IMG/VR virus record: IMGVR_UViG_3300027793_000126
Coordinates: 1-43,609 of that record
Source of the DNA: a virus
Strand: one strand, 5' to 3'
Length of the DNA: 43,609 nucleotides
Every line of letters begins with the position of its first letter. Position 1 is the first letter of the stretch. The notes below the pieces were generated by a model. That model was not told where the DNA came from. It saw nothing but the letters and a program-made list of their open reading frames with translations, and did no database searches. A program made the translations under genes and the position numbers. This document shows positions 18,984 through 42,368 of the stretch, one piece after another.

Positions 18984-21017
18984 CTAGTAAAACTTAATCT
19001 CACATGCATCAGTTGAGCAATATGCTTCTCCTGCTGCCTCAAGATTTTCAATACCATCATAAATAGCAGACCAGTCAATCTTTCCAATCTTACCTACGTA
19101 TGCATTGTATTCTTCTCTTGTAATTTCTGTATAAGGTTGCTGTGGATAAGTCTTGTTGCCCATTGGAAGGAATGATACTGCCTTGAGTTGTCCCTCGTAC
19201 ATATTGAGTGCTGGAGCAACAAACTTCTTCTCTTCTTCCTTATCAAATGATAGAGTTACAGAAACACCATTATCAGACCAGTACTTCTGAGCAGTTGCTG
19301 CCAAACCAATTTTTTCAAATAGGCTAACTTGTTTTTCAGAACGCTTGTGTCCTGATGCAACTGGGAAATATACTACTGAAGTATTTGCTGATACTAAATC
19401 GTCTTCAATTTTATACCCCGCTGCTTTGAATAAATGAAGCATTGGATCTTGATTACCAAAACGAATAGCACGAAGATAGAATTCTCCTCCAGGTCCCCAG
19501 TGAACTCCAGGGGTAGCACCAGAAAGAAGTGATACAGATCCTGATGGCTTAACTGTTGTTACACGAACTGATTCACGAACACAAAGCCACTCTGAATATG
19601 AATGATCATATTTACGAATTGTATTATATCCTTCGTCCATCCACTCACGAATAACTGGAAGTCCGTGCTCATCAGCAAAGGCAGCAATACCTGTAAGAGA
19701 TGTACCAATACGACGATTACGCTGCATAATACCGTTTGTCTGTTGCCAGTGTGTTGGCATAAGAGTTACAGTCTTGCCGTAGAGGTATGCAAACTTCAAT
19801 GTCTTGAGGAAGTCTTCCTTAGATTCATGACGATTTAGGTGCACTTCTACAAGTGTGCAAAGTTCGTATGATTCCAATGGCTGCTCCGCACACGGATTAA
19901 ATCCCATAATGCGAGTGTCCTTGTAGTCAGGAGCATCTGCAAGACGGCCATAATTACGAGCAACATCAAGCCAGATAAAACCTGGCTCTCCATTGTCTGC
20001 AATTAAATCTACATAATCTTCATACTTAGTTCCAACTTCAGCAGCGATTGAATTATTACTCATCCATGCCCAACCTGGCTTTTCTGGATCATATGAATTT
20101 CTTTCTGGAAATACTTCTGGATTCTTAAGATTAATAAAACCTTCATCTTCTGGTACACCAAGTGCAAGAGTTGCAGAACGACGAACATTTCCAGAAACAA
20201 CACAGGTACCAATAAGGTTTACAATATCTACAATAGCACGACTGTCTAGGGCTTCTCCTGCTCTAGAACCTATTACATTACGAATACGTGTATGGAGATC
20301 AATAAGTGGTTGTGGACCGCTTGCAACGCCTCCAAAGCCCTTAATAGGGGCTCCTAGAGGACGGATAAGGTCATAGTTGAATTCCTGAATTGGCTGATTC
20401 TGGCGTAAAAATGAGTTGATTAAAAGACGAACTGATTCTACCCATCCTTCACGAGTATCTGGGATTTCATAGATTGATGCTGGCTCTGTAGGAGCATAAA
20501 TAGACATTTGCTTGTCTTGTCCAAGGGTATCAAATCCTACACCAATACCCAACATTAATGCATCCATTACCCAAGCAAATAATGCACCAGGATCATTACG
20601 ATCAATGTCACGAGTAGAAACCATAGCACAGTTTTGCAGGGAAGCAGAGTTACGCTTCTCCATAGTCATAGGTGTACCAAATGCCCAAAGACCACGACCT
20701 GGTGGTGTCCACTTCAATTCAAACATTCTTTGAAATGCTTCTTGGGCAGACTTCTGAGCCTTATTATCGTTCCATGGAAGACGGTTATCCTTAGCATGGT
20801 TCTTCTGTACTGAGTACATACCCTCAATTACACGACGGCAAACTTCATGCCAGCGTTCTTTAGTTCCATCTTCCTTAACACGAGAATATGTACGAATAAA
20901 TGTAATCTCTCCTAACGAGTTGGACCCTGCATCTGAGAATCCAAATGGTGCTGGAGTGTTATTATATTTATTTACAAATTCATCTGAAAGACGAAAAGAG
21001 AATACGGTTTCTGACAT
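18984..21017 (-). CDS. adenosylcobalamin-dependent ribonucleotide reductase (class II, monomeric)
   Basis: This 677-residue enzyme reduces ribonucleoside triphosphates to deoxy forms using coenzyme B12, supplying dNTPs for phage replication. The key residues of the Lactobacillus enzyme are all present with the same spacing: the disulfide pair C130 (SLQNC) and C387 (ELC), the radical cysteine and glutamate C376 and E378 (FNPCAEQ), and the C-terminal shuttle pair C667 and C672 (CSTDAC). A leader of about 55 nt precedes it, too short for a cobalamin riboswitch. It sits inside the virion gene block rather than with replication genes. It depends on B12 from the host or environment. Confidence 0.95.
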   Translation of the reverse strand: MSETVFSFRLSDEFVNKYNNTPAPFGFSDAGSNSLGEITFIRTYSRVKEDGTKERWHEVCRRVIEGMYSVQKNHAKDNRLPWNDNKAQKSAQEAFQRMFELKWTPPGRGLWAFGTPMTMEKRNSASLQNCAMVSTRDIDRNDPGALFAWVMDALMLGIGVGFDTLGQDKQMSIYAPTEPASIYEIPDTREGWVESVRLLINSFLRQNQPIQEFNYDLIRPLGAPIKGFGGVASGPQPLIDLHTRIRNVIGSRAGEALDSRAIVDIVNLIGTCVVSGNVRRSATLALGVPEDEGFINLKNPEVFPERNSYDPEKPGWAWMSNNSIAAEVGTKYEDYVDLIADNGEPGFIWLDVARNYGRLADAPDYKDTRIMGFNPCAEQPLESYELCTLVEVHLNRHESKEDFLKTLKFAYLYGKTVTLMPTHWQQTNGIMQRNRRIGTSLTGIAAFADEHGLPVIREWMDEGYNTIRKYDHSYSEWLCVRESVRVTTVKPSGSVSLLSGATPGVHWGPGGEFYLRAIRFGNQDPMLHLFKAAGYKIEDDLVSANTSVVYFPVASGHKRSEKQVSLFEKIGLAATAQKYWSDNGVSVTLSFDKEEEKKFVAPALNMYEGQLKAVSFLPMGNKTYPQQPYTEITREEYNAYVGKIGKIDWSAIYDGIENLEAAGEAYCSTDACEIKFY

Positions 21018-39172: not shown

Positions 39173-39346
39173 CTAGTGTGTGCCTTGTAAATATCCATCC
39201 ACGCCAATTAGATCGCAAGTAATCTTTACTCGCTGATTTTTATTTAGCGTAGTCTTGAATAGGTGCATGAAGTCATAGACCTCTTGCTTAGTCATGAGAT
39301 TTATATCTCTAGTATTTCCAGACATTGTTGTTATTGTTACTTTCAT
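39173..39346 (-). CDS. 57-residue protein, unknown
   Basis: The ATG at 39346 directly follows the TAA of the 46-residue gene (TAAATG). The product is MKVTITTMSGNTRDINLM, a helical middle (TKQEVYDFMHLFKTTL) and an end RVKITCDLIGVDGYLQG. The end resembles that of the 60-residue gene at 42186 (VKVACDTLGITGTLRG), and both keep a strand-helix-strand layout, so they are probably distant paralogs. It is the last gene of the leftward operon. Confidence 0.6.
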   Translation of the reverse strand: MKVTITTMSGNTRDINLMTKQEVYDFMHLFKTTLNKNQRVKITCDLIGVDGYLQGTH

Positions 39347-39487
39347 TTATTCATTCCAATCTAAAGTTAATTCGTCTTTATCTACACAATCGCAAGACTC
39401 TACATCGTAGGTATCACCATCGCCGAAGTAGATAAATCCTGCACCCTTGCACTCATCGCAAGGGATAACCATGATATCTTTTATCAT
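39347..39487 (-). CDS. 46-residue Cys4 zinc-binding-type protein
   Basis: The ATG at 39487 directly follows the TAA of the 75-residue gene. The product has PCDECKGAGFIYFGDGD and SCDCVDKDEL, so C-x2-C and C-x-C pairs separated by about 20 residues, like a DnaJ-type or rubredoxin-type metal knuckle. Function unknown. Confidence 0.65.
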   Translation of the reverse strand: MIKDIMVIPCDECKGAGFIYFGDGDTYDVESCDCVDKDELTLDWNE

Positions 39488-39715
39488 TTATTTAACCCCC
39501 ATAACTATGGACATGTATCGCTTAGCAATACGCTTAGCCATAGGGTTGAGGATAACCTTTCTACCCTCGTAGGTAGGTGGATACTTATCGTTAATGCGTT
39601 GAGCAACACGAATAGGTATCATAGTAGGGCGAGGGGCGAAGCCACCTGCCTCTAATCCATATTCTTTAGCGATATCGCTACGGATTTCATTGTAGTAGTT
39701 ATTTAATGTAGTCAT
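39488..39715 (-). CDS. 75-residue protein, unknown
   Basis: The product is basic with an N-terminal helix (LNNYYNEIRSDIAKEYGL) and a C-terminal helix (MAKRIAKRYMSIVMG) around a Pro-rich middle (GGFAPRPTMIPIRV). AAAGGTGG precedes the ATG. It is the first gene of the leftward three-gene operon driven by the tandem promoters at 39804-39832 and 39966-39994. Confidence 0.6.
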   Translation of the reverse strand: MTTLNNYYNEIRSDIAKEYGLEAGGFAPRPTMIPIRVAQRINDKYPPTYEGRKVILNPMAKRIAKRYMSIVMGVK

Positions 39716-39803
39716 TTGAGACCACCTTTCTTTTTTTCTAATTCTACTGGCTGGGATTTTTGCCTATATACTTTTTCTACCCATATTTAATTTTATAGTA
39801 ATA

Positions 39804-39853: not shown

Positions 39854-39869
39854 TGTGATTTAGGTCACT
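39854..39869. promoter_or_regulatory. Crp/GlxR-type box 1
   Basis: TGTGATTTAGGTCACT: TGTGA, 6 bp, TCACT, one mismatch from the TGTGA-N6-TCACA consensus of Crp-family regulators. It lies 60 bp before the PL1 -10. Confidence 0.6.
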
Positions 39870-39918
39870 TATTTGCTAGGCTCACCCGAACATTTGTTCG
39901 GTTTATTTGCTAGGCTCA
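39869..39918. repeat. 16-bp perfect direct repeats flanking LexA-type box
   Basis: TTATTTGCTAGGCTCA occurs at 39869-39884 and 39903-39918, period 34. The LexA-type palindrome lies exactly between them. Confidence 0.7.
39886..39901. promoter_or_regulatory. LexA-type SOS box
   Basis: CCGAACATTTGTTCGG contains CGAAC-N4-GTTCG, the Gram-positive/actinobacterial LexA site, as a perfect palindrome apart from the central TT. It lies between PL2 and PL1, so a bound repressor could block leftward transcription from PL2. Confidence 0.65.
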
Positions 39919-39965
39919 TTGACCTGCTTCTTTTCTTTTTCTCTATTTAATTTTTGTATATAGTA

Positions 39966-39994
39966 ATACTAGCATACATTTCCCAAAAAGTCAA
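39966..39994 (-). promoter_or_regulatory. leftward promoter PL2
   Basis: On the minus strand TTGACT, 17 bp, TAGTAT preceded by TGC. TGTCC units start 48 and 39 bp before the -10, and the TGTGG-N6-TCACA box starts 70 bp before it. This is the leftward copy of the right-arm layout. Confidence 0.75.
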
Positions 39995-40025: not shown

Positions 40026-40041
40026 TGTGATTTGCACCACA
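40026..40041. promoter_or_regulatory. Crp/GlxR-type box 2
   Basis: TGTGATTTGCACCACA: one mismatch from TGTGA-N6-TCACA. It lies six bases from the TGTCC repeat and 70 bp from the PL2 -10. Confidence 0.6.
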
Positions 40042-40066: not shown

Positions 40067-40134
40067 AAGTTATCCACATGACGTAGATCACACCCCCATT
40101 TCACGCTCAAGTTATCCACATGACCTACATCACA
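40067..40134 (+). repeat. two 26-bp repeats, each with DnaA box and Crp-type half site
   Basis: AAGTTATCCACATGAC followed by STASATCACA occurs at 40067-40092 and 40109-40134, with 2 differences in 26, period 42. Each holds a perfect DnaA box TTATCCACA (40070-40078, 40112-40120) overlapping a TGTGA-N6-TCATG box on the minus strand (40077-40092, 40119-40134). The second Crp-type box lies 72 bp before the -10 at 40191. Confidence 0.75.
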
Positions 40135-40141
40135 TTTCAAA

Positions 40142-40196
40142 ATGTCCGTTTTGGTATGATTACTGGCTAGTAGATGTCAGACCCCCCTGCTATACT
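40142..40196 (+). promoter_or_regulatory. rightward promoter PR1
   Basis: ATGTCC starts at 40142, 49 bp before TATACT (40191-40196), which is preceded by TGC. ATGTCAGAC starts 17 bp before the -10. No -35 match is present, so an activator may be needed. Confidence 0.7.
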
Positions 40197-42185: not shown

Positions 42186-42368
42186 ATGTACAATGTAAAA
42201 CTAGAAACCTTTAATGGTTCAGTAAAAACAATCAGCCTGCCTTCTAAGGGTGCGGTTGCACAATTCATCAACACTTACCCAACACAATTACCCGTTGGCG
42301 TATCCGTAAAAGTCGCTTGCGACACTCTTGGAATTACTGGCACACTACGAGGAAAGGCCTCTCTCTAA
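42186..42368 (+). CDS. 60-residue protein, unknown
   Basis: The ATG follows the previous stop by one base. The product is strand-helix-strand (MYNVKLETFNGSVKTISL, then AVAQFINTYPTQL, then SVKVACDTLGITGTLRG). Its end is like that of the 57-residue leftward gene at 39173, so the two may be distant paralogs. Confidence 0.6.
   Translation: MYNVKLETFNGSVKTISLPSKGAVAQFINTYPTQLPVGVSVKVACDTLGITGTLRGKASL

Follow-up and report, generated by a model that had tools for sequence, protein, structure and literature searches.

A structured leader RNA in phages of freshwater actinobacteria, with an apical hairpin predicted to double as a host LexA operator

The window analysed here, the whole 43,609-nucleotide stretch of the IMG/VR virus record IMGVR_UViG_3300027793_000126, carries at positions 39862-39925 what is almost certainly a structured RNA. 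It is a member of a strongly supported structured RNA family of freshwater actinobacterial phages that is absent from Rfam. The account of the region that we consider likely is that of a leader RNA whose apical hairpin doubles as a predicted operator for host LexA, which would act as a roadblock to transcription from the upstream promoter P1, the folded RNA acting in cis on its own message. One palindrome is here apparently under two constraints, as an operator in the DNA and as a hairpin in the RNA, a natural case of such a double role. For phages whose hosts are among the most abundant bacteria of fresh water, almost nothing is known about gene control, and the RNA family adds to that knowledge.

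Architecture of the element and its surroundings

The CGAAC-N4-GTTCG site reported in the initial annotation was recovered as CGAACATTTGTTCG at 39887-39900 and is the only exact match to this pattern in the window. It is flanked, as had been described, by two exact 16-bp repeats (TTATTTGCTAGGCTCA at 39869-39884 and 39903-39918), of which no further copies occur in the window at up to 2 mismatches. The palindrome also lies between two leftward sigma70-like TTGACT-17-TAGTAT sites (39994-39966 and 39832-39804), both within a 42-nt repeat of 79% identity, and the proposed leftward operon of three open reading frames is present. What did not stand is the view that the repeats frame an operator: they are the two conserved, covarying strands of an RNA element and not operators. 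Missed earlier was the RNA fold as such, with its outer stem AGGTCA/TGACCT, in which 39925-39920 pair with 39867-39862. A perfect operator match between repeats can belong to an RNA fold, and the region serves as a warning in this respect. The features are listed below in the order of the leftward transcript.

39966-39994, minus strand: promoter P1 (PL1 in the initial annotation), TTGACT-17-TAGTAT with TG before the -10, assigned by consensus match only
39862-39925, minus strand: 64-nt structured leader RNA element with a twin UGAGCC/GCAAAUAA module, from the covariance model, covariation and folding
39920-39925, minus strand: 5' arm of the outer stem, AGGUCA, partner of 39867-39862, with two-sided changes at all six pairs in relatives
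39903-39918, minus strand: module copy 1, UGAGCCUAGCAAAUAA, its core paired to copy 2
39885-39902, minus strand: apical hairpin ACCGAACAAAUGUUCGGG, 18 nt, an A.G mismatch followed by a 6-bp stem
39887-39900, unstranded: candidate LexA operator CGAACANNTGTTCG of host type inside the hairpin, from sequence match
39869-39884, minus strand: module copy 2, UGAGCCUAGCAAAUAA, an exact copy, with covariation
39862-39867, minus strand: 3' arm of the outer stem, UGACCU, from covariation and sequence, overlapping the CRP-type site
39855-39868, unstranded: CRP-type palindrome GTGATTTAGGTCAC, centred at about -65 from P2
39804-39832, minus strand: promoter P2 (formerly PL2), TTGACT-17-TAGTAT with TG before the -10, assigned by consensus match only
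39488-39715, minus strand: operon gene 1, 75 aa, no functional match (none in PHROG), relatives in 30 viral loci
39347-39487, minus strand: operon gene 2, 46 aa, with a CxxCxGxG stretch, from the ORF list; weak match to phrog_26056, a family of unknown function
39173-39346, minus strand: operon gene 3, 57 aa, no PHROG match

The leftward transcript therefore reads outer stem, UGAGCCUAGCAAAUAA, hairpin, UGAGCCUAGCAAAUAA and outer stem. These parts form a rod composed of the outer stem, a loop UGA/AAAUAA, a short core helix with two bulged C, a loop AAAUAA/UGA and the hairpin. Outer stem, CUAG core and hairpin were all present in the minimum-energy folds of the window copy and of most others tested. 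The window copy folds at -17.1 kcal/mol (z -2.99), and the gain of single-sequence folding over shuffled sequences was modest for several relatives. Covariance model R1 found a single match in the window (73.7 bits, E 1.1e-16), which is itself one of the 40 model sequences. As a separate observation, GGGTAGAAAAAGTATATAGGCAAAAATCCCAGCCAGTAG in the P2 leader (39720-39797, minus strand) could fold as an interleaved pseudoknot (GGG/CCC with GGC/GCC), and a close copy is found in the related locus L031.

Covariation, distribution and host of the RNA family

A single perfect palindrome in 43.6 kb is merely suggestive, and relatives were therefore needed. A search with the 75-aa gene 1 product gave 30 related viral loci, whose upstream regions were compared. 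These display TGAGCCTAGCAAATAA, a short inverted repeat and TGAGCCTAGCAAATAA again, the inverted repeat differing in almost every phage. Scanning of viral contigs with exact patterns of the element returned at least 120 stretches, and at least 240 distinct copies were counted in uncultured freshwater actinophage contigs, the IMG/VR contigs being redundant and fragmentary. Sixty relatives were aligned and covariation was scored on a 40-row alignment (A2), in which 90.8% of cells were paired and both sides had changed in 156 cells versus 45 in shuffled alignments. The covariation score reached 0.470, compared to 0.103 +/- 0.013 upon shuffling and at most 0.108 with the partner slid, and two-sided changes were present in all three helices. 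MAFFT misplaced gaps for the shortest hairpins, and pair counts were taken from a subset and from a register-based test in Python. Pairs 2, 3 and 5 of the inner hairpin were Watson-Crick in 98-100% of 47 distinct hairpins (35-52% when shuffled), and the position adjoining hairpin stem and module was G.A or A.G in 38 of 46. The seemingly invariant core proved to be a helix between both repeats, whose complementarity is kept in the combinations CTAG/CTAG, CTAC/GTAG, CTAAG/CTTAG, CTTAG/CTAAG, CTAGG/CCTAG and CTAT/ATAG. The hairpins range in size from CC-GAAA-GG up to 18 nt, and the common occurrence of GNRA tetraloops, of which CC-GAAA-GG is an example, indicates RNA. A single-module form, TGAGCC-hairpin-GCAAATAA, is also present. 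A nested three-module form, CCTAG-TGAGCC-[full twin element]-GCAAATAA-CCTAGG, was noticed in loci L002, L009, L014, L066 and others, from which it appears that modules can stack on one rod. The hairpin was also scored as an intrinsic terminator on the plus strand; this candidate was rejected because the sequence changes freely with complementarity kept and no family-wide U-run is seen.

With the covariance model, every one of 26 related records (25-112 kb in length) yielded between one and three copies, in some cases distributed over both strands; the window yielded one. An ORF follows 115 of the 120 nonredundant copies, the ATG lying at a median distance of 43 nt from the element. A promoter scoring at least 9/12 lies upstream of 63 of them, the element being in nearly all cases 24-51 nt from the -10. 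The proteins encoded downstream of the 120 copies fall into 35 families, and the leader element is thus not tied to one gene. No match was obtained in Rfam at gathering scores for the window and 11 related loci, and relaxed E-values (E up to 10) gave chance-level matches only. The element was not found by pattern search in GTDB genomes, nor in GenBank phages by megablast of the region or blastn of the 80-nt element, nor described in the open papers searched. A scan of 151 genomes of the candidate host family with the covariance model gave one 22.8-bit match, which on inspection was devoid of the module sequences.

WhiB is encoded by 14 of the 20 records searched (the window and relatives), which marks these as actinophages; the window is among the six without it. 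The MCP of the window has relatives in isolates, mostly Streptomyces phages, with identities not exceeding about 44%. Both points weaken the host assignment; we tentatively infer that the phage infects freshwater actinobacteria, with Planktophila and relatives as candidate hosts.

The palindrome as a LexA site

Genomes of candidate acI hosts were located through a 16S signature that we take to be characteristic of freshwater acI bacteria. Those of Nanopelagicales (Planktophila and relatives) contain one to four CGAAC-N4-GTTCG sites each, nearly all of them CGAACANNTGTTCG, and most of the sites examined precede a recA, lexA or dnaE2-like gene, the names being assigned from protein starts. The phage box has the same consensus as the boxes of these plausible actinobacterial hosts, in agreement with the earlier assignment to the Gram-positive LexA type. 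CGAACANNTGTTCG also agrees with the published actinobacterial motif (PMC2248561), the difference being that the box of the element is located in a leader RNA hairpin, away from promoter hexamers.

The palindrome was counted in the window and in 149 related phage loci (150 sequences, 1.45 Mb in total). CGAAC-N4-GTTCG is present there in 22 distinct instances, compared to an average of 1.7 for permuted half-sites, CGAAC being one of the permutations, and the enrichment extends outside the RNA element. The 18-nt apical hairpins were collected by an any-hairpin scan together with a LexA-specific scan. At least 33 are distinct among the matches listed: 15 of LexA type, 17 of CRP type (TGTGN8CACA) and 1 other. 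All 12 operator positions of CGAACANNTGTTCG, including the A and the T located in the RNA loop, are invariant in the 15 distinct LexA-type hairpins, in which the outermost pair varies, as do both central bases; these copies are related by descent, and their counts do not represent independent events. The DNA flanking them is only about 60-66% identical, and the box recurs at the equivalent place in dozens of related phages. Invariant operator positions that are unneeded for pairing, within diverged flanks, are the expected mark of overlapping DNA and RNA constraints. The box is therefore very probably a true LexA site, as predicted from its sequence. Neither a LexA-type repressor or LexA domain nor a tyrosine integrase was found in 22 related records, so that an ordinary prophage-induction switch is not indicated. 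In loci L042, L072, L082 and L093, a LexA-type box is also seen outside the RNA element, about 20 bp from DnaA-type boxes (CGAACACCTGTTCG..TTTATCCACAGG).

Transcription starts were estimated as 7 nt after the -10. On this basis the LexA centre of the window is located at about +66 from the P1 start and at -97 from P2. Most relatives have it between about +53 and +57 relative to P1, and of 33 copies about two thirds have it at exactly -97 relative to P2. Almost all LexA-type elements belong to the leader of P1, the upstream member of two tandem promoters, and the genes that follow them represent at least nine families. The box overlaps neither P1 nor P2, which leaves a roadblock from within the leader as the only mode of action. 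LexA could thus block elongation from P1, with P2, the promoter nearest the genes, uncovered, and the damage response of the operon could consequently be small. A precedent is provided by phage GIL01, in which the LexA of the host binds downstream of the P1 start and represses this promoter (PMC4551915), and host LexA in such a position can therefore control a phage promoter. GIL01 differs in being temperate and in using the phage protein gp7, whereas the present box lies inside an RNA element and the 22 records lack an integrase or LexA homologue.

A CRP-type box is fixed at -65 from P2 in most LexA-type relatives and shares positions with the 3' arm of the outer stem. CRP-type palindromes occur near phage promoters, for example at 39855-39868 and 40026-40041 of the window, and GTGAT-N4-ATCAC is the commonest spaced palindrome (104 distinct in 1.45 Mb). 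CRP-type hairpins precede one other gene family in 58 of 79 cases, a relative of which is located at 42186 in the window. The CRP-type palindrome was also considered as a host site, a candidate set aside as TGTGA-N6-TCACA is rare in the candidate hosts. Many phages carry non-LexA hairpins such as GATAAC..GTTAT and CCTC..GAGG at the equivalent tandem-promoter position, and LexA control is therefore not essential to the element. We lean towards the idea that the leader RNA family has an exchangeable apical slot, often holding a palindrome on which selection acts twice, in the DNA as the operator of LexA or of a CRP-type protein and in the RNA as a hairpin. On this reading, production of the RNA regulator would depend on whether the repressor occupies the DNA. 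It becomes possible to ask by experiment whether lytic actinophages read host stress through LexA and another cellular signal through the CRP-type site.

Proposed working and alternative explanations

The proposed working can be briefly summarized as follows. At the DNA level, host LexA would occupy the palindrome, which follows P1 by approximately 55-66 bp and precedes P2 by 97 bp. RNA polymerase coming from P1 would be halted by the repressor, and P2, with its CRP-type site at -65, would still fire. Cleavage of LexA after DNA damage would let P1 transcripts pass. At the RNA level, the palindrome would become the hairpin that closes the pseudo-symmetric element, and the folded element would act in cis, most likely through an interaction with RNA polymerase or with an RNA-binding factor, resulting either in put-like antitermination or in protection or stabilisation of the transcript. 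This joint explanation relies on computed parts, namely the covarying RNA structure, its position after promoters, the exact match to the candidate-host box and the conserved geometry, from which we infer LexA binding, the roadblock, the damage response and a transcript-level function. We give even chances to P1 being damage-responsive, and antitermination is proposed tentatively as the function of the RNA.

Comparison with known systems places the element closest in position to the put sites of HK022 and, more loosely, to lambda nut. The two putRNAs of HK022, from putL and putR, follow PL and PR and are phage leader RNAs of about 70 nt just downstream of early promoters (PMC9378689), and the present element is 64 nt long and found just after promoters. 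Records contain one to three copies of it, and only some of them have copies on both strands. A put RNA has two stem-loops, whereas the element is a single rod with two symmetric internal loops, and its host type is an actinobacterium; the likeness is one of position, antitermination being only proposed here. Kink-turns have a 3-nt bulge followed by G.A and A.G pairs. Each module could be read from its sequence in a similar manner (kink-turn or UAA-GAN) as a core helix, an AAA bulge, possible U.A and A.G pairs and an A-U pair. The AAA bulge is present, yet an invariant U stands for the first G, giving U.A for the defining G.A. The ESAS of cluster K mycobacteriophages are imperfect 17-bp inverted repeats linked to a start-associated sequence (PMC3203893). 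They resemble the element in that two repeats, separated by a spacer that varies, are located upstream of numerous small genes of the phage. They differ, by their published description, from the direct 16-nt repeats found here, which act as RNA strands.

An RNA element alone would need only complementarity in its hairpin, the LexA likeness being a historical accident with no binding of LexA. Most hairpins of the family are indeed not LexA boxes, and the inverted repeat as such is explained by RNA constraint. We nevertheless hold this to be unlikely: CGAACANNTGTTCG is kept in all 15 distinct LexA-type hairpins down to two loop positions while the outermost pair and central bases vary, the candidate-host consensus is identical, and the pattern is enriched in these phages outside the element as well. 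The converse explanation, that of the initial annotation, is a plain SOS-controlled promoter pair with repeats acting as DNA operators or spacers and LexA repressing the leftward operon. An exact host LexA box between two promoters and the -97 spacing to P2, fixed in most relatives, would agree with it. It becomes very improbable given that the repeats covary as RNA strands (CTAC/GTAG, CTAAG/CTTAG), as do outer stem and hairpin, that the same repeats enclose operator-free GNRA hairpins in many phages, and that the box overlaps neither promoter.

The leader RNA with a hairpin serving also as operator can further be weighed against a riboswitch-like function, that is, translational or metabolite control instead of antitermination or stability. 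The end of the element is often 25-70 nt from the start codon, as such control would have it. The diversity of the 35 downstream families, which are unrelated, the fact that some copies precede a second promoter and not a gene, and the lack of any visible alternative expression platform make this function rather doubtful. An origin or iteron region, in which the repeats would bind a phage replication protein, could be suspected from two perfect DnaA-type boxes TTATCCACA at 40070-40078 and 40112-40120, 150-190 bp away within a 26-bp repeat. It is hardly credible in view of the 120 nonredundant copies, which lie after promoters and before ORFs in one orientation, of the many loci devoid of nearby DnaA boxes, and of the RNA covariation, which has no counterpart in an iteron model.

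Several minor observations were made in the same material. Each copy of the 26-bp direct repeat (40067-40134) contains a perfect DnaA-type box, TTATCCACA, joined to half of a CRP-like site (TTATCCACATGACSTASATCACA). The repeat is found in related phages in ten sequence variants and may represent a phage origin or a site for a regulator. Promoters of the class ATGTC[AG]G-N10-TATAAT are present at 40174, 41044 and 41913 (plus strand) of the window and in related loci. The distance from the motif to the -10 is exactly 10 nt in 414 of 499 distinct sites, shuffled motifs giving 17-117 sites. The motif is too close for a -35 box and may be a phage-specific (middle-type) promoter mark. Finally, a 677-aa ribonucleotide reductase (phrog_367) is encoded at 18984-21017 on the minus strand, amid structural genes.
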